A stretch of 64,000 bases of DNA, taken from NCBI GenBank assembly GCA_025399215.1, contig MU621096.1, forward strand, positions 62,001-126,000, written 5' to 3'. Positions 2,993 through 58,996 of the stretch are shown here, piece after piece. Source of the DNA: Globomyces pollinis-pini (lineage: Eukaryota; Chytridiomycota; Chytridiomycetes; Rhizophydiales; Globomycetaceae). Each line of letters opens with the position of its first letter. Positions within the stretch are counted from its first letter, which is position 1. Below the pieces are notes generated by a model, which did not search any database, had not been told where the DNA came from, and saw nothing but the letters and a program-made list of their open reading frames with translations. A program made the position numbers and the translations under genes.

Positions 2993-4454
2993 ATGACCAG
3001 TCCAAGGTTGCTAAGACATCCACCCACAAGTTCTTTGTCCAATAAATCTTTGTTGGGAGATCAGAACTATCCATGGGGATATCCGCAATGGTTAACCACT
3101 CCAACTCATTTGAATCCATCACCATCAAGTAGTGTTACAATAGACCATGTACCGCCAGATAAAGCGATATCACCATTTTCAAACAACTCTCGTATATCTT
3201 TGTATGATGATACTGTAGAAATGGAAGATACATATGTAGTTGAAGACAAAAAAAATGGGATTAAAGCTAATCATCCATCGAACCGTAAAATAACAATGGA
3301 CAAACTGTTGCCTAAAGATATTGAATTGATTGGATGTCTTGGAGATTCGTTATTTACAGGTTTAGGAGTCACTGCCTTTCCAAGCAAGTGGAAAAACAAA
3401 ATATATCAATGGTAGGTGACTCAATAGGACGCTAACTCTTCTAGGTATGTATATATTGGCCTTTTATTCCTAGGTATCCGTATTTTGTGGTAACAATTTT
3501 AGGTGATTCTGTTAAAAGTTAATATTAGGTTTGACAAGAATGTGATTCATAAATAGGTTATTTGGACTATATACGTTTATATTTTAGGTAAATGAACGAT
3601 CATTAACGATAGGTGAGCAATCTGATGTATTGATGATAGGTTATTCAAGTACAACAAACTCATTCCATGGATTTTATCCGGAGAACATCGGCAAAATACA
3701 TGTATTCTAGGTGGTGGAAAAGGAGTGATATCGGTCGGAAGGTTATTGAAGAGATATAATCCAGCTTTACAAGGTTTAAATACGCGAAAGACAAGGATGT
3801 TTTCAAGAGGATCGGATTACAACTTTGCAACTACAGGAGCAAAATCACAAAATTTAAGAATGCAGACGATCCGAATGGTAAGGCGGTTCAAAAGAGATCG
3901 TACAACCCATTCAGTGAAGATCTTGTTCTTATGGATTGGTGTGAATGGTAACCTTTCTTGACCTGATCCCAGATGCGTTTTCCAAATCCCACAAATCATT
4001 GGAAAAAACCTTTGTGGGTGACATTGTAACAGCATTGGCGCTCATCAAAACTCATTTACCAAATACTTTTGTCTGTATCTTACCATTGCCAAATCTAGGG
4101 CAGGTGCTTAAAGATGTGGGATCAGAGAAACGAACAAAGATAATATCAAAGATCAAGTTAATCAATCAGTTATTATGGGACGTGACCAATGATTGGGATT
4201 TTAATGGTGACTATTACTTTCGAGTTACATTCCAGCCAATACCTTTTGATGATCTGGACAATCCAGAGTTTCTAAATATGTATCCGTTAATCTCAACATT
4301 AGATGATCAACATCCTTCTTTTATTGCACAGCAGTTGTTTGCCAAATGTATTTGGAACAATTTGTTCTTGAAACCAGAACATAAAGTAACCAGTATACAA
4401 CAAGTGATAGATAGTGCTTGGTATGAACCTACTGAAGATGACTACTGTCAATGA
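2993..4454 (+). CDS. GDSL-family phospholipase B-like lipase
   Basis: SGNH/GDSL hydrolase resembling phospholipase B1 (lysophospholipase). Coding blocks 2993-3411, 3640-3947 and 3973-4454 give 402 residues. Block I is IGCLGDSLFTGLG with the nucleophile Ser. WILSGEHRQNTCILGGGKG follows, matching the 'SWSIGG' segment of the family. Then come ATTGAKSQNL and the block III Asn in WIGVNDAF, created by splicing the 25-nt intron 3948-3972. The catalytic Asp/His pair is in DDQHPSF near the C-terminus. No signal peptide: the N-terminal about 100 residues are Ser/Pro-rich. The gap between coding blocks 1 and 2 is not one ordinary intron but eight abutting intron units (see 3412-3639). Removing all of them keeps the frame and gives the expected spacing between GDSL and WILSGEH. 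Confidence 0.8.
3412..3639 (+). other. Array of eight abutting minimal introns
   Basis: The 228-nt gap divides exactly into eight GT...AG units with no base between them: 3412-3444, 3445-3473, 3474-3502, 3503-3528, 3529-3556, 3557-3587, 3588-3612 and 3613-3639 (33, 29, 29, 26, 28, 31, 25 and 27 nt). Every junction reads (T)AG|GT. Several units carry a TAAC/TAAT branch-like motif close to the acceptor. Lengths equal those of single introns elsewhere in the window. The flanking exons join as TG|G (Trp), in frame. Confidence 0.75.
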
Positions 4455-5409: not shown

Positions 5410-6262
5410 ATGTCTATCGATACTCTCTCTCAGTCTCAAACATTGCGCAATTTGGAACTCATGATTGAATAGTATTGGACTTTTGATTCATCTTTTAGGT
5501 AATTGAATTTAATTCTGATGGTGTACAGTAAAAACTTGATCTCATCCTTGAATTGTCCTTCTGGATGCTATGTCATGCCTACCGATGATCTACATAATTG
5601 GCATGGCGTTATGTTTATCCATCGAGGTTTTGTTTTATAATCTTAATGGTTTAGGTTACTATAAAGAAGCTGTTTTTAAATTCAATTTGTTGATTCCAAA
5701 TACGTACCCTGAAAGTCCACCTGTTGTTAAATTTGTCTCTCAGGTATTCCATCCCTTGGTGGACTCCAATGGCATTCTATCATTAGGTGGATATATAATT
5801 GTTAATTTTAGGTTATTTGATTATTGTTGACTTTTAGGTTTGTTTCCATATATTCATGACTGTAGGAGCGTTAGATTCACACTGGAGACCCAGACAAGAC
5901 TACATCTGTCATGTCTTACACTACATTAAAGATATTTTCAAAGGTATCATATTTTAAAATTTATTTGAAAGATTCTTCAATCAAATCACTCAAAGGTAAC
6001 AAAATGTATTGATAACAATGATTTTAGAGGCATACTGTCCTCACGCAGAAGCCTTACAGATGTATCAAAATGAACGATCAACATTCATCAAATTAGCAAG
6101 TGATTGTGCACAAATTTCAAGTCAACAATCTATACTATTTGAACAAGATCAATCCATAATCAATTTCAAACCTTTAGATGATGGTGAATTTGTAAACATC
6201 AGATTACAATTGCATGTAAATATGCTGATATTAACATTTTATAGAAATCTGTTGGACTGTAG
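5410..6262 (+). CDS. AKTIP: FTS/AKTIP-type inactive ubiquitin-conjugating enzyme variant
   Basis: UEV protein of the FTS-Hook-FHIP complex that links dynein to endosomal cargo. Exons 5410-5471, 5529-5626, 5655-5786, 5866-5943, 5972-5995, 6028-6215 and 6245-6262 give 199 residues. The UBC fold runs as DLHNWHGVMFIHRGYYKEAVF, then LLIPNTYPESPPVVKF, FHPLVDSNGIL, then LDSHWRPRQDYICHVLHYIKDIF. No catalytic Cys sits in the usual place after FHPLVD, as in FTS. One exon is only 24 nt. Intron 1 is a double unit and intron 3 a triple unit of abutting introns, both needed to connect conserved sequence in frame. The last, 6-codon exon is less certain. Confidence 0.85.
5472..5528 (+). other. Double abutting intron (AKTIP intron 1)
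   Basis: Units 5472-5498 (27 nt) and 5499-5528 (30 nt) abut as TTTTAG|GTAATT. Removing both joins MIE to YKNLISSLN in frame. Removing only the first gives an immediate TAG stop. Confidence 0.7.
5787..5865 (+). other. Triple abutting intron (AKTIP intron 3)
   Basis: Three units, 5787-5811, 5812-5837 and 5838-5865 (25, 26 and 28 nt), all with TTTTAG|GTT or TAG|G junctions. Removing all three joins SNGILSL to GALDSHWRPRQ, the contiguous FTS core. Confidence 0.75.
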
Positions 6263-26926: not shown

Positions 26927-29074
<2,148 letters not shown>

Positions 29075-29689: not shown

Positions 29690-32012
29690 ATGTCTAAACA
29701 AGGTACTGTCTTTGTCTATAACTATAGATTCTAGAAAAGCTCACTATAACGCTTTCGGTCCTTATCGCTTAGGTAAAACTATTGGACAGGGGGAATTTGG
29801 AAAGGTCAAACTGGGTTATCATGTCAAGTCACAGAAAGAGGTTTCTTGTTCAATTTCTAATCATAGGTATTAATATCGCTATTTCTAAGTATATTACTAT
29901 AGGTACTATTATAACTCTCATTCAAAAGGTCGCTATTAAATTAATCAAAAAAGACTCTATTCAAAATCCTACCAGAAGACAGAAACTTATTAGAGAGATT
30001 GATATTCTGCAGGTAATAAAATATCACTGCTCACATCAGTCCTTGAATCACTGTTACGTTGTCAAATTATATGAAGTCATTGAAACAGAATCTTATATTG
30101 GAATGATCATGGAGTACGCTTCTGGTACTCGGATTACACTAACAAAAGGTGGTGAACTTTTCGAACATATCTTGGCCAGACAATACTTGAAAGAACGTGA
30201 AGCTGGTCGTTTCTTTGCTCAGCTTATTGTTGGTATGACAATTGGCTCTCATCTCTTAGGTGTTGGCTTTCTACATAATAATGGAATCGTTCATAGAGAT
30301 TTGAAATTAGAAAATTTATTGTTGGATAAGAATCGGAATGTTATTATTACCGATTTTGGTTTCGCTAATCGCTTCTCCAAAGAAACAAACGATATGTTGT
30401 CTACCAGTTGTGGTAGTCCTTGTTATGCTGCACCCGAACTGGTTGTGAACGATGTACTTTTTCATCCCTCAACTAACCATAGACATATGTAGGTGAATCA
30501 GCTGATATTTGGAGTTTGGGTGTTATTCTCGTAAAATTTTATTTATTTATCTTTAGTATGCCATGCTATGTGGATACCTACCCTTTGATGATGATCCAAC
30601 AAACGCCGAGAGCGATAATATCAATCAATTGTATAAATATATATTGGAAACTCAATTGGAATTCCCTGCTCATGTCTCACCCGTAGCAAAGTCTCTAATT
30701 AATCGTATTCTGGTCACGGATCCAGAAAAACGTGCGGATATGAAGGAAATCAAATCTCACTTGTATGTATTTTGTTGTTGATTGTAGATGGTTGAAACCA
30801 TTTTGGCATATTATTGCGGAAGATGAGGAGACAGGGACAGTTAGTGAGTCGAAAATGTTAAAAGCAAAGAAGGAACAGGTGACCACTTTACCAGCTTCTC
30901 CTCCTCCAGAAAGCGCTATTCCTGCCCCACATTCGGCTCCTATGGATGCTGATGTCTCGCATATGGAACCACCTTCGGTTTCTGTTTCTTCTATAGACCT
31001 ATCCCAAATCAATACAACTAATGATACACCACAGACTCACACCACCACTTCTGCTATCGATATACCTACTACCACACCTTCTTCTCCGCCTCAGAGTGAC
31101 GATGATACTAAACCAACACCATTCGACAATAAAAAAGCAACTCGAAACTCAGATTCTTCAGATAATTCGACATCCTTCATTGTTCCAACCAAAACTGAAG
31201 TCAAGGTCGTCAAAACTTCATCTGGTGGCGAACAGAAGAATGATTCTTCCAAGGCAGCTACACGATCGCACAGTGTAGACCATCAACGTACCTATTCAGG
31301 TACACATTTGTTATTAACATTAGTGCCAACTGAACCAATGCCCGATAGTGACTTTATCGGTCGTGCTAGTGCGCAAATCAGTCGATCTGCACCATCCGTA
31401 CATTCCTCAGATATATCATCACTTAAATTTCATTCCGGTCCCATCGACAAACGTGCTATGTCATCACTACCACCAGCTGTCGTGCTTAACAAGATTATTA
31501 CTCTATTGACCGAAATGGGTCTTGAAGTTTTACACACCAATAATCCATACAAACTCAAAGTCTATAAACGACCACCAGGCGAGGGATACTACGTAGATGA
31601 TATGGCATCTGATTTCTCTGACCTAGACACTACATTTGCAGAATCCCAAAGTTCACCCAGACACTCACCCCCAGTATTTCGTCCTACTGTTGGGACAGAT
31701 ACCACACGCAAATCACGTTTCGGCTCTGTCTTCACTTCCTTCCCCACCAACGTCTTTCAAAAAATCAAAGTCCTTGGTCAATTCGGATTACAATACAACC
31801 GAGGTTTTGACGGTAATGAAACCCCACCCGTACCCACTTCCAAGCCTGTCGAGCCCGAAACCCTCAAATTCAATATCATGGTCAACCGCATCAAGAATTT
31901 AGATGGGCTTCTCTCTGTTGATCTTAAAAGGCTTCGTGGTGATATCTGGGAATTCAAGAGGTTGTATCATGAGATTATCCTAAAATTGGGGTTGGGTGTG
32001 GAAGTGAAGTAA
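29690..32012 (+). CDS. KA1-domain protein kinase C (Kin4/Frk1-like)
   Basis: Third paralogue, on the opposite strand; 675 residues. It begins with a 13-nt exon (29690-29702: MSKQ). Kinase domain: [69 protein letters not shown] Thr/Ser/Pro-rich linker follows, then KA1 (KFHSGPIDKRAM ... GDIWEFKRLYHEIILKL). Ten intron positions, mostly 24-29 nt. The one before VAIK is a triple abutting unit, where A and B have one intron each. The 24-nt segment 31300-31323 is a likely intron although its length keeps the frame open either way. Confidence 0.87.
29841..29928 (+). other. Triple abutting intron (kinase C)
   Basis: Units 29841-29866, 29867-29902 and 29903-29928 (26, 36 and 26 nt) with AATCATAG|GTATT and CTATAG|GTACT junctions. 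Removal joins VKSQKE to VAIKLIKK. Paralogues A (26491-26517) and B (28904-28927) carry one intron at the same place. Confidence 0.78.
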
Positions 32013-35362: not shown

Positions 35363-36184
35363 ATGTCCAATGAAAGCTTAGTTAATGGAACTCCAGAAAA
35401 TTTCGTGAATCTACTAAATAATAACCTTGATCAAGAATGTCGTGATATTGTGATTGAATATGGAATCCCATTGGCACACACTTGTCTCCAAAGCGATCAT
35501 ATTGATATCAAGAAAACCGAGGGATTATGTAAAACTGAATGTAAGAATATAATGGCGAATTTTATCAATCATGTTGTACCAAAATGTGGAAATCAACAAC
35601 TCTTTACTCATATCGATAAAGAAACTGCAGCTGATTTTATTTCACATGTTTATTTTACTAGTGCAGTAGGTTGTGTTTGGGTTTCTACAAGTACACATCG
35701 ATCTAAACGTGTAATTGGACCAAGTACTACTGATAATCTATCATGCTTGTTGATTCAAACAGGAAGTGTACTCAAAGTAGCTGGTGATATAGATTTGTCC
35801 AATACAAACAATGCTGTCATTACATCTGTCAATCTTGCTGCACAACTTAGTGATAGTGGATGTTCCATTTGTGTTGATAATCAAGTTCAGGCTTTAAATA
35901 ATATTCAACCAGGTATACTTTCTCCACAAGATCAAGAAGCTTCTGATGGTCTAAATCAATTCTTTAATAGTTTCTGTCAACCTATTGGAACTCAATCTCA
36001 ACAAATTGCTGATGCAGAAAGAAATACACCATACCAAGTGACTGGAGCTATGTTGGGAATCATTGGTAATGTAGCTACAGGAAATATGGTCAAAACTGGT
36101 AGACTTGTTGCTGCAGGTGATATTTGTAACTCACCACTACTGTTTGTTAATCTTGTTTGGTGTACTATAGTGTTTTTGTTATAA
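35363..36184 (+). CDS. Cysteine-rich paralogue of the secreted protein at 36503
   Basis: Intronless, 273 residues, unknown family. It is a diverged tandem copy of the next gene: shared blocks NFVNLLN, YGIPLAHTCLQSDHI, ETAADFISHVYFTSAVGC, IGPSTTDNLSCLL and CSICVDNQVQAL, with matching cysteines. The C-terminus ends in a hydrophobic run (LLFVNLVWCTIVFLL) that could be a GPI-anchor signal. Unlike its sister it starts MSNESLVNG without a signal peptide, and no upstream exon encoding one is visible. It may be non-secreted, use an unseen exon, or be a degenerating copy. Its codons are strongly A/T-ending, unlike the sister. Confidence 0.65.
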   Translation: MSNESLVNGTPENFVNLLNNNLDQECRDIVIEYGIPLAHTCLQSDHIDIKKTEGLCKTECKNIMANFINHVVPKCGNQQLFTHIDKETAADFISHVYFTSAVGCVWVSTSTHRSKRVIGPSTTDNLSCLLIQTGSVLKVAGDIDLSNTNNAVITSVNLAAQLSDSGCSICVDNQVQALNNIQPGILSPQDQEASDGLNQFFNSFCQPIGTQSQQIADAERNTPYQVTGAMLGIIGNVATGNMVKTGRLVAAGDICNSPLLFVNLVWCTIVFLL

Positions 36185-36502
36185 ATGCTTTCTTTTCATG
36201 ATTTCATATTTTTCTCTTGATATTTAACTATGGATGGTTTAAAAACGTTATAATGAATTTTGACGTTTTACGCGATCAGGACGTCAATAAAAAAATTCTT
36301 ACAAATAGCAAGCATATATGTGAGTTCCAAAACTAATGAATATCTAATCAATATTCAATATTCGATGATGAAGGTGGAGTTAGGAAAATATTTACGTCAT
36401 GTTTACAACAAATAATAGTCAAACAATGAACAATCAAAACAATCGAATGTGATAAAAGAAGAGAAATGTCCCTAAATTTCCTTCACAAAATAATTCTTGA
36501 AA
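36185..36502. other. Intergenic region between the two paralogues
   Basis: 318 bp; no gene. It is the promoter region of the 36503 gene. A CGTTATAATGAATTTTGACG / TTTTACGCGATCAGGACGTC stretch is locally CG-richer than surroundings, but I name no site. Confidence 0.35.
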
Positions 36503-37423
36503 ATGGCTAGATTTGCATTCTCTACTACTCTCCTATTTGCTAGCGCTGTATTGGGTGAAACCATTCCTGCCGGATTTGTCAAGGTGGTTATTCCTGACAC
36601 ATCTGATAACTTTATCAACCTTGTGAACCCTTCACTTACTGCTGAATGTCATGATTCAATTGTTAAATATGGTGTCCCAGTTGCTAAAATCTGCCTCAAA
36701 AGTGATCACATCAACATTGCAAAAACTGATGGTTTCTGTACTACATCTTGCAAGAATGCCTTGGCTGAATTCCACAACAATGCAGTCCCAGCTTGTGGCA
36801 ATCAAGTTATCTTCCCTCATGTTCCAGGTGAAACTGCTGCTGATTTCGCTTCTCATGCTTACTTCACCAGTGCTGTTGGTTGTGTCTACTTTTCAGTTGA
36901 CGACAAGGGAAATGAAGTCAGTGTCACAAAGAGAGATGATTCTGTTCAAAAGCGTGCTGTTGGTCCTTCAGTCACTGACAATCTTTCCTGTTTACTTGTC
37001 CAAACTGGTAACGTATTAAATGTTGCTGGACAATTGGACTTTTCTAGCAACAACAATGCTGTTATTACCACCACTAACGTAGTTGCACAAGTTGATTCTA
37101 CTGCTTGTTCTACCTGTGTTGATAACCAAGTCCAAGCTCTTACCAACTTGCCAGCTGGTGTTCTCAGTGAAGCAGATTTAAAGGCTGCCAATGACTTGAA
37201 TGATTTCTTTGATGCTCTTTGCCAACCTCTTGGAGCAGCAGTTGATGACATTTTCAGCGGAAAGGAAGAAGCCCCTCGAGTGGTAGGATCCGTGTTGGGA
37301 CTTGTTGGAACCAGTGCTCAAGGTATTGCACCACTTACCGGAAACCTACGAGCCAGTGGAGCTAATGCCAACACTGTTGCTGGAGCAGTTGTTGGAGCAG
37401 TTGCTGTTGGGTTAATGATGTAA
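36503..37423 (+). CDS. Secreted, probably GPI-anchored cysteine-rich protein
   Basis: Intronless, 306 residues, unknown family. Signal peptide MARFAFSTTLLFASAVLG with likely cleavage before ETIPAG. The lumenal part has paired cysteines (KICLKSDH, FCTTSCKN, SAVGCVYF, LSCLL, STACSTCVDNQ, ALCQPLG). A Lys-Arg-rich stretch in the middle (TKRDDSVQKRAVGP) looks like a pro-protein processing site. The C-terminus is small residues then hydrophobic (NTVAGAVVGAVAVGLMM), a GPI-anchor pattern. Codons are notably richer in C-ending choices (AAC, TTC, GTC) than all neighbours, suggesting very high expression. Possibly a cell-wall or cyst-surface protein (inference). ATG 36503 gives the signal peptide its proper start. 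Confidence 0.75.
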   Translation: MARFAFSTTLLFASAVLGETIPAGFVKVVIPDTSDNFINLVNPSLTAECHDSIVKYGVPVAKICLKSDHINIAKTDGFCTTSCKNALAEFHNNAVPACGNQVIFPHVPGETAADFASHAYFTSAVGCVYFSVDDKGNEVSVTKRDDSVQKRAVGPSVTDNLSCLLVQTGNVLNVAGQLDFSSNNNAVITTTNVVAQVDSTACSTCVDNQVQALTNLPAGVLSEADLKAANDLNDFFDALCQPLGAAVDDIFSGKEEAPRVVGSVLGLVGTSAQGIAPLTGNLRASGANANTVAGAVVGAVAVGLMM

Positions 37424-57500: not shown

Positions 57501-58996
57501 AACCTTCATCCGTTTCTGTGGACTAGAGGATAGTACATCGTCAGTAACAGCTTCCATTTGTGAATGGGCCGATCGCAATTTAGCCAATTCTTTATCAAAA
57601 TGATCTCCTTCTGTAATTGAACCGGTTGAATCAAGATCCATTGGGGAGTCAGATTGTGACTTGTTGGAAGTTAAAACCAAACTTTGATTGGAATCAAAAG
57701 AAGAATCCGCATCTGTCAAATCTTGGGGTGGGAAAAAATTGGCAATAGTGTCTCTTTTCTTTTGTTGTATAATTGGGCTATCAGTTGGGGGAAAAAAGTT
57801 TGCAATTGTATCTCGGTTAGGTTTGGCCGCCATTGGACTTTCCAAGTCTGGAAAGAAGTTTCCAATAGTATCTCTAGGTTTTCGCCGTTTATTTTTGTTC
57901 TTTGCTGGTTTATTGGCAGTTTTCTCGCTAGCAACTGGAGATGAATTCACCATTTCATTAGCTGAACTACTAAATACATCAGCTTTACCAATAGGGGATT
58001 CTAAATCGCTGTTGTTATCTACTTGGAAAAATGGAGCAATGCTATCCCTATATTTGGATTGGGTCTTCAATTTAGTGTTGTTCTCATCATTCCAAGGTGA
58101 GTTGATAGCACTGCTTGAAGAGATAGCTCGAGGAGTAGTTAAGCGTTTTGGAGTCAACTTTGGAAAATCAACTGTAGCGGTTTTCTCTGCTTTGGGAGTC
58201 AACATGTGCTCCATCTCATTTGAAATGTTGGCCCCGAAATTCATGGATTCTAATGTTAGTAAAATACTTTAAATGCTATACCCTCTTGGTCTAATTCTTG
58301 CTCAGATTGGTCAATACTCATATCCATTGTTTGCTCCATAGTCGTATCAAACATGGTGGATCTGACCGATTTAGTAGTAGATGGTGGTGCAAGTACGATG
58401 TCGGGATGTTTAATAGGTGTTGATGGTTCCGAGTTGGACATTTGCCTGGCTTCTTGTATCGCTTTGTCCAACAAGGGAGTTGTGGAGCCAATGCGTGTTC
58501 CAAGACTGAAAGTCGGTGTTGAAATAAATAAACTACTCAAATAATTACTGGGTTGATGTTTCTGTGGTGTTGTGTTATTATCAAGTTTTGGGGATCCAGT
58601 TAAATTGATTTCGAAACTATTTTTTGATGCAAATCTATCAAATTTAGAGGTAGATTCATTACTCTGAATTTTCTGCGATTGACAAATCAAAAATACTAGA
58701 ATTAAATGATTGATCCAATTACTTTCTATCCGTTTGGTCGCTTACTGGTGCAAACATGGCTACTAGTCAAATTAACAGAATCAAACCTAAGAATAAATCC
58801 ATAAAATAGTTCATACCTAGAGTTTTTGCTATTTCTGCCTCTTCATCATCCTCTTCTTGTACATCAGTTTCGAATAATCTGACATGAGCTTGAGCTGCAA
58901 AACTAACTCTTCTTCCTGAAGATTTTCGTCTTTCCATAGCTACCTGTAAGGGTTTCTAGATCTCAGGTTGATTATTTTTACCTCAGAAGTGTTCAT
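54574..58996 (-). CDS. SPC7: Kinetochore scaffold KNL1/Spc7
   Basis: Outer-kinetochore protein that binds PP1 and, when phosphorylated by Mps1, Bub1/Bub3. It spans about 4.4 kb with many short introns. N-terminus: RRKSSGRRVSFAAQAHVRLFE with the PP1-docking RVSF. A long disordered part holds a MELT-like MDMSIDQ (near 58320) and five copies of the repeat RD(T/S)IxxFF (RDSIAPFF, RDTIGNFF, RDTIANFF twice, RDSITPFF). These sit in the MELT/T-Omega position and are usually followed by Asp/Ser/Pro. A coiled coil leads to the C-terminal tandem-RWD region (EAKENLTNEAVQRRYSRV ... LGPVKQTWVYDDMVQITFTKHG). Start ATG 58996 precedes a 36-nt intron. Some internal exon limits remain approximate. Confidence 0.85.
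58763..58816 (-). other. Probable double abutting intron (KNL1)
   Basis: Units 58816-58787 (30 nt) and 58786-58763 (24 nt) with an ATTCTTAG|GTTTGATT junction. Splicing only the first leads to a stop within six codons; removing both continues as TLVAMFAPVSDQ. It could also be a single 54-nt intron. Confidence 0.55.

Follow-up and report, generated by a model that had tools for sequence, protein, structure and literature searches.

The window considered here is a stretch of 64,000 nucleotides (nt) from the chytrid Globomyces pollinis-pini (contig MU621096.1, positions 62,001 to 126,000 of the forward strand). Its plus strand carries a gene that, judged by its sequence, is a relative of the GDSL lipases and phospholipase B (PLB), and whose coding sequence is interrupted by an array of what are probably abutting minimal introns, called a train below. 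Exon 1 (2993..3411), delimited from the sequence and a Pfam match, ends in ...IYQ-TG (phase 2). Exon 2 (3640..3947; LFKYNKLIPW...WIGVN), placed by a Pfam match and homologues, is followed by an ordinary single intron of 25 nt (3948..3972) and by exon 3 (3973..4454), which runs to the TGA stop of a protein of 402 amino acids. Removal of the single intron gives the GDSL-family motif WIGVND, which matches the WIGxND of the homologues, one homologue excepted.

The 228 nt between exons 1 and 2 (3412-3639, +) are tiled exactly, with no leftover base, by eight GT...AG units of 33, 29, 29, 26, 28, 31, 25 and 27 nt. The train consists of units 1 (3412..3444, branch CTAAC), 2 (3445..3473), 3 (3474..3502), 4 (3503..3528, TTAAT), 5 (3529..3556), 6 (3557..3587), 7 (3588..3612, TTAAC) and 8 (3613..3639, TTGAT), of which unit 3 is the sole one with a poor branch score (-2.27). 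This tiling reproduces the eight abutting units of 25-33 nt described in a first-pass annotation of the same DNA. Its statement that every boundary reads AG|GT holds at all seven junctions inside the train and at its 3' end and fails at the outer 5' boundary, which is CAATG|GTAGGT, i.e. TG|GT. An alternative outer donor, at an AG|GT a few bases downstream, was rejected, as an in-frame TAG would remain. The pentamer TAGGT occurs nine times, at spacings of 29, 29, 29, 26, 28, 31, 25 and 27 nt, the first copy (3413) lying inside unit 1; the TAGGT density of the window predicts 0.19 per 228 nt, in line with the earlier estimate of fewer than one. Only one other TAGGT chain of at least three members is present in the window (three members, 5784-5835).

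Once the 228 nt are removed, IYQW is joined to LFKYNK in frame, and the spliced protein matches Pfam Lipase_GDSL (PF00657) over residues 113-368 (E=3.5e-10). A deposited G. pollinis-pini protein (P0001), whose start corresponds to residue 102 of our model, is identical to it over 301 residues spanning the join and omits the train exactly, and a protein model of Globomyces sp. JEL0801 skips the region. Residues encoded by the train are missing from P0001 and from the PLB homologues in protein comparison. Restoration of the frame, as first proposed, is thus borne out by the join, the domain match and the identity to P0001; restoration of the GDSL-family spacing is only approximate, since the join lies in a loop in which other chytrid homologues carry 2-4 more residues. 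Any one of the eight units retained alone brings a stop no more than 33 codons from the join. The window gave no Rfam match for structured RNA at gathering scores. By their GT and AG ends, their length and their branch distance, the PLB units classify on sequence grounds as GT-AG introns, and we hold with good confidence that the block represents eight complete minimal spliceosomal introns separated by zero-length exons.

The units were compared with the ordinary introns of the species in a sample made of the window and 20 further genome regions (L031-L050), 264 kb in total out of a genome of 18.5 Mb. Twelve of the 20 regions had been picked for trains seen in a search for TAGGT pairs; the unbiased part is the window plus L043-L050 (144 kb), within which the window itself carries the PLB finding. 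A gene-finder with an exon model and donor, branch, acceptor and length terms was trained without supervision on the whole sample and returned 116 genes and 731 introns, replacing a first version that overcalled introns (2584). Single introns were limited to at most 40 nt (580 kept), and 56 predicted introns above 40 nt were listed separately. The singles measure 28.1 nt on average (SD 2.7), and about nine in ten predicted introns have their acceptor some 28 nt from the donor. Their signals are a GTA[AT] donor, a YTRAY branch and a TAG acceptor. At position 5 of the donor, where G is usual, the consensus has none (18% G and 45% T among the 580 singles), and the branch mostly ends 3-6 nt before the AG, which leaves scant space for a polypyrimidine tract. 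AG stands directly before 163 of the 580 singles (5.5% in coding sequence) and GT directly after 83 (4.8%); an AG|GT context commoner than coding sequence gives would favour the duplication or independent arrival of units. Genome searches for U6 and U1 gave no match, but their controls were silent too, so that they are uninformative, as is a U6-core pattern (one match with three mismatches against four for the reversed control).

The PLB array, presented at first as a single case, proved to be one of many. The gene model called 29 multi-unit runs, of which three with a unit above 40 nt were dropped; two partial runs on L031 were replaced by a ten-unit train set by hand, and a train in a UBC-fold gene of the window, which the model had mis-split, was also set by hand. 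The resulting 26 trains, two of them thus set by hand, comprise 100 units and range from two to ten units. Ten trains have two units, four have three, six have four and two have five; a single train has six, another eight, and two reach ten. In the window plus L043-L050, 11 trains stand beside 310 singles of at most 40 nt, about 3% of intron sites. The longest lie in CHMP3/VPS24 (L031:4779-5067, C4:31779-32067, minus strand; ten units of 26-32 nt, 289 nt) and in PHYHD1 (L033:4585-4869, C12:42085-42369, plus strand; ten units, 285 nt). Removal of the CHMP3 train gives LAKE^VVNSKKA, which aligns without a gap to LAKEMIRSRKA of human CHMP3, and removal of the PHYHD1 train gives IFK^QPDIGGEV, equally ungapped against IFKQPHFGGEV of a solved homologue. 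The same is true of a five-unit train of 138 nt in a CLK kinase on L039 (HDL^GLIHTDLKPEN versus HDNKLTHTDLKPEN) and of a two-unit train in gamma-COP (L037), while six units of 163 nt in MCM8 (L032) leave a one-residue gap beside the join. The total length of 14 of the 26 trains is not a multiple of three, yet removal restores the conserved frames. As such trains sit inside conserved domains, their complete removal is required.

Internal train units measure 28.9 ± 2.5 nt, against 28.1 ± 2.7 nt for the singles, and the 25-33 nt of the PLB units agree with the earlier remark that they equal the single introns of this genome in size. Branch sites were scored with a model trained on single introns alone and compared with dinucleotide shuffles. 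Mean branch scores were 1.34 for PLB, 1.51 for CHMP3, 1.14 for MCM8, 1.03 for PHYHD1 and 1.79 for the UBC train, the singles reaching 1.42 (sample of 200). Shuffles scored between -0.66 and -2.04 across trains (-1.98 for PLB, -1.54 for CHMP3) and random GT...AG spans -2.62. None of 2000 shuffles did as well as any scored train except UBC (15/2000). Scores above 0 were found for seven of the eight PLB units and eight of the ten CHMP3 units. The interpretation of the block as a train of introns, advanced from the letters of the window, is supported by unit length, by this branch signal and by the position of trains inside conserved domains.

The periodicity extends across the genome, where 536 TAGGT pairs were counted at a spacing of 25-30 nt versus 115 at 14-19 nt, with a flat reversed-pattern control (1174 versus 1146). 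Among the 100 TAGGT pairs listed, which are the first places of the genome, YTRAY lies 3-9 nt before the acceptor in 47 (shuffle expectation 12.9 ± 3.3, maximum 24) and 11-17 nt before it in only 11. The 144-kb part has 40 AGGT pairs at a distance of 24-29 nt, versus 15-18 in each of the two lower bins of equal width. The 264 kb hold 14 AGGT chains of at least four members at 23-36 nt spacing; letter permutations of AGGT give 0-3 such chains, apart from TAGG (9) and GGTA (7), which both overlap AGGT. The same rhythm in intergenic DNA had been named as evidence that would speak against introns; all 14 chains are found within predicted genes and run in the sense direction, and no chain is antisense or intergenic, a result that is partly circular because those gene models rely on these very signals. 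A second decode was run with intron chaining disallowed and a flat length prior. In the window plus L043-L050 it called 15 introns of 50-69 nt, 8 of which can be divided into AG|GT units where shuffles predict 0.93; among its longer introns in the 264 kb, 13 tile into at least three units (0.04 expected). A clean length peak at multiples of 28 was looked for in this decode and not seen, since many of the long calls are probably gene fusions, and its informative result is the tiling.

Several further trains lie in the window. The UBC-fold (UQ_con) gene carries, on the plus strand, a two-unit train of 27+30 nt (5472..5528), placed by the gene model only, and the hand-set three-unit train of 25+26+28 = 79 nt (5787..5865; join ILSL-GALDSHWRP); with the train removed, the protein matches UQ_con with E=1.3e-21. 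Two kinase genes contain, inside the Pkinase domain, a two-unit train of 30+25 nt (28004..28058, minus strand; join INRLY^KYILETQ) and a three-unit train of 26+36+26 nt (29841..29928, plus strand; join KSQKE^VAIKLI), and the kinase trains catalogued as T21, T22 and T15 fall inside Pkinase. A gene model of 1366 codons has a two-unit train of 30+27 nt (58760..58816, minus strand), again placed by the gene model only. Elsewhere in the window, two adjacent open reading frames on the same strand (35363-37423, +) resemble paralogues, with shared stretches such as LSCLLxQTGxVLxVAG.

Two deposited protein models, both of highly conserved genes, depart from complete removal. The CHMP3 model P0019 starts inside the ten-unit train and treats unit 8 as coding sequence; it is also missing the conserved N-terminal part, for which reason it looks like an annotation error. 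The PHYHD1 model P0061 has 19 additional residues, which correspond in frame to units 4 and 8. Neither the Boothiomyces orthologues (P0018, P0063) nor the solved human CHMP3 and PHYHD1 proteins have residues at the train positions. The deviations of P0019 and P0061 are likely to be annotation errors, or else rare isoforms. Both models, by annotation only, put splice sites at internal AG|GT. As these models conflict with all the evidence at the trains, annotation pipelines probably hide such arrays elsewhere.

A probable origin of trains can be read from L033. In the PHYHD1 train two neighbouring 28-nt units are identical, and 9 of the 45 unit pairs are alike at p<0.001; a second train of the same region (L033:3157-3273, +) has one such pair. 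The L033 trains probably grew by recent tandem duplication of whole introns, and duplication may be locally active in this stretch. No unit pair of any other train is alike at p<0.01 (0 of 28 for PLB, best pair 0.136), and outside L033 the units of one train are as dissimilar as units of different trains, yet AG|GT is kept. Near-identical copies at many loci, the mark of introner elements, were looked for among the 100 train units, and the single identical pair there lies within one train. The diverged trains hold either old duplicates or units that arrived independently; duplication would be their origin if they followed the course seen in L033.

These observations can be assembled into a mechanism that starts from the signals of each unit, namely its own donor, its own TAG acceptor and, at a distance of 3-9 nt from the latter, a branch site. 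A spliceosome that normally pairs donors with acceptors about 28 nt downstream could recognise each unit alone. The loss of any unit would regenerate AG|GT or exon|GT, so that neither the order in which units depart nor their departure alone or in groups would make a difference to the mRNA. Trains would arise by tandem duplication of whole introns, at no cost, since splicing would remove the extra copy like the original. After divergence each junction would persist, since its loss could leave a unit in the message and bring a premature stop. We infer that the cell uses the internal junctions from their retention, as the PLB and CHMP3 units have diverged but have kept AG|GT and most branch sites; the sequence by itself would leave the order of removal free. 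Unit-wise splicing of this kind would need no cryptic exon, unlike ratchet-point splicing in flies. On balance we lean towards the view that composite introns form a genome-wide class in Globomyces, that they grow and shrink by whole spliceable units, and that their splicing is intron-defined, unit-wise and free in order.

Several observations weigh against this interpretation. Outside the called trains, 94 AGGT-AGGT spans of 23-35 nt have a poor branch score (-1.79), and some two-unit trains may be due to chance, about one being expected among the 8-11 that are tileable. Unit 3 of PLB has a poor branch score as well. Mean donor scores in trains are 0.10 for the first, 0.39 for internal and 0.74 for the last units, compared with 0.94 in singles, and GTA donors make up 65-77% in trains versus 90% in singles. 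The deposited PHYHD1 model P0061 treats two train units as coding sequence. No tandem similarity is left in the PLB train, so that its origin by duplication is only presumed. Untiled introns occur in conserved domains, namely 75 nt in Ribosomal_L13, 77 and 145 nt in PCNA and 165 nt in a kinase. The 145-, 77- and 75-nt introns lie on the minus strand of L032 and L034, and the 165-nt intron, which cannot be tiled, at 28545..28709 (minus strand) of the window, in the same gene as the 28004..28058 train. Most predicted introns above 70 nt in the non-chaining decode are also untiled, many of them probably false gene fusions. The idea that trains exist because the spliceosome cannot remove introns above a certain length was dropped on account of the untiled introns of 75-165 nt.

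Because conserved genes of this genome hold such introns, the splicing machinery could in principle excise an entire train at once. The block would then be a single 228-nt intron spliced from 3412 to 3639, its internal AG|GT being unused relics of duplication or chance, and P0001 is equally compatible with this. Long introns other than trains do not show the AG|GT rhythm of 25-33 nt, however, and unused sites should decay, whereas PLB and CHMP3 have no pair of units alike at p<0.01 and still have their internal AG|GT intact; we consider a single long intron unlikely. A strict 5'-to-3' recursive splicing, in which exon 1 is joined stepwise as by Drosophila ratcheting with the donor regenerated each time, would draw on the fact that every AG|GT could restore a donor beside exon 1. 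Known ratchet points belong to introns of great length and depend on a cryptic exon, which is skipped afterwards (PMC8605326), and in the trains the sequence imposes no order while the first donors are the weakest; a strict direction of removal is thus quite unlikely.

The models P0061, with its 19 residues from units 4 and 8, and P0019, with its start inside a train, are what would be expected if some units were alternative micro-exons making protein variants. Against this stand the Boothiomyces proteins P0018 and P0063 and the solved human proteins, which have no residues there, the stop brought by each of the eight PLB units when kept alone, and the missing conserved N-terminal part of P0019, which makes that model look like an annotation error. 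For PLB, coding micro-exons were rejected on the basis of the stops and the homologues, and in general we regard them as highly improbable. That the arrays are chance or a minisatellite devoid of splicing meaning, as the 28-nt tandem repeat of L033 might suggest, has next to no probability left and is already refuted: the PLB units are alike only in their splice signals, TAGGT pairs are in excess genome-wide (536 versus 115), all 14 chains are sense in predicted genes, and the 14 of 26 trains whose length is not a multiple of three leave restored frames. A minisatellite was accordingly rejected for PLB, although the term is partly true of L033.

Trains share features with several known systems. 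As at the recursive splice sites or ratchet points of Drosophila and mammals, their AG|GT is a zero-nucleotide exon and segmental removal would give the same mRNA. Recursive sites are few per intron, found mostly in long introns and dependent on a downstream cryptic exon (PMC8605326, PMC2773006). Trains differ in holding up to ten sites 25-33 nt apart, the segments being ordinary introns for the species, and a long intron is not what PLB offers, its train measuring 228 nt in all. The AGGT of trains could, like the human dual-specific splice sites, serve as donor or acceptor; the PLB sequence fits such sites, and P0061 implies both uses, by annotation only. Human dual-specific sites are weaker than single-role sites (PMC10809524), and train donors are likewise weaker. 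The human sites described there are scattered or tied to coding repeats (ubiquitin), whereas trains are non-coding arrays of minimal introns. The stwintrons of ascomycetes would resemble trains in their consecutive splicing reactions; in a stwintron a splice element of the outer intron is interrupted by an inner one, which has to be removed beforehand (PMC9024468, PMC7138796). Train units, in contrast, abut at AG|GT, none being nested or interrupted.

A further likeness is intron gain by tandem or repeat duplication, where duplication of AGGT-bounded DNA yields a new intron. Potato RdRp is reportedly a case of intron gain by duplication. In a Cryptococcus gene, repeat expansion altered the intron number (PMC2395259). 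Insofar as these accounts describe them, such gains place introns within duplicated coding or repeat DNA, while in trains the intron itself is duplicated with no exon between copies. Introns of about 25 nt are documented for Paramecium and other ciliates, and the part of that source available describes no trains (PMC5014332). No account of such intron arrays was found in the open-access literature searched, a scope outside which most subscription papers fall.

The trains of Globomyces would be natural test beds in which to ask which of several nested, equivalent donor-acceptor pairs a spliceosome selects, and to study recursive splicing that proceeds without exon definition. Stages of the process are visible in one genome, from the identical copies of L033 to the fully diverged units of PLB and CHMP3. 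If the proposed reading is true, introns multiply in place by whole units, which would be a simple route of intron gain: the number of introns would rise without new insertion sites, and, once the units have diverged, each junction would become indispensable.
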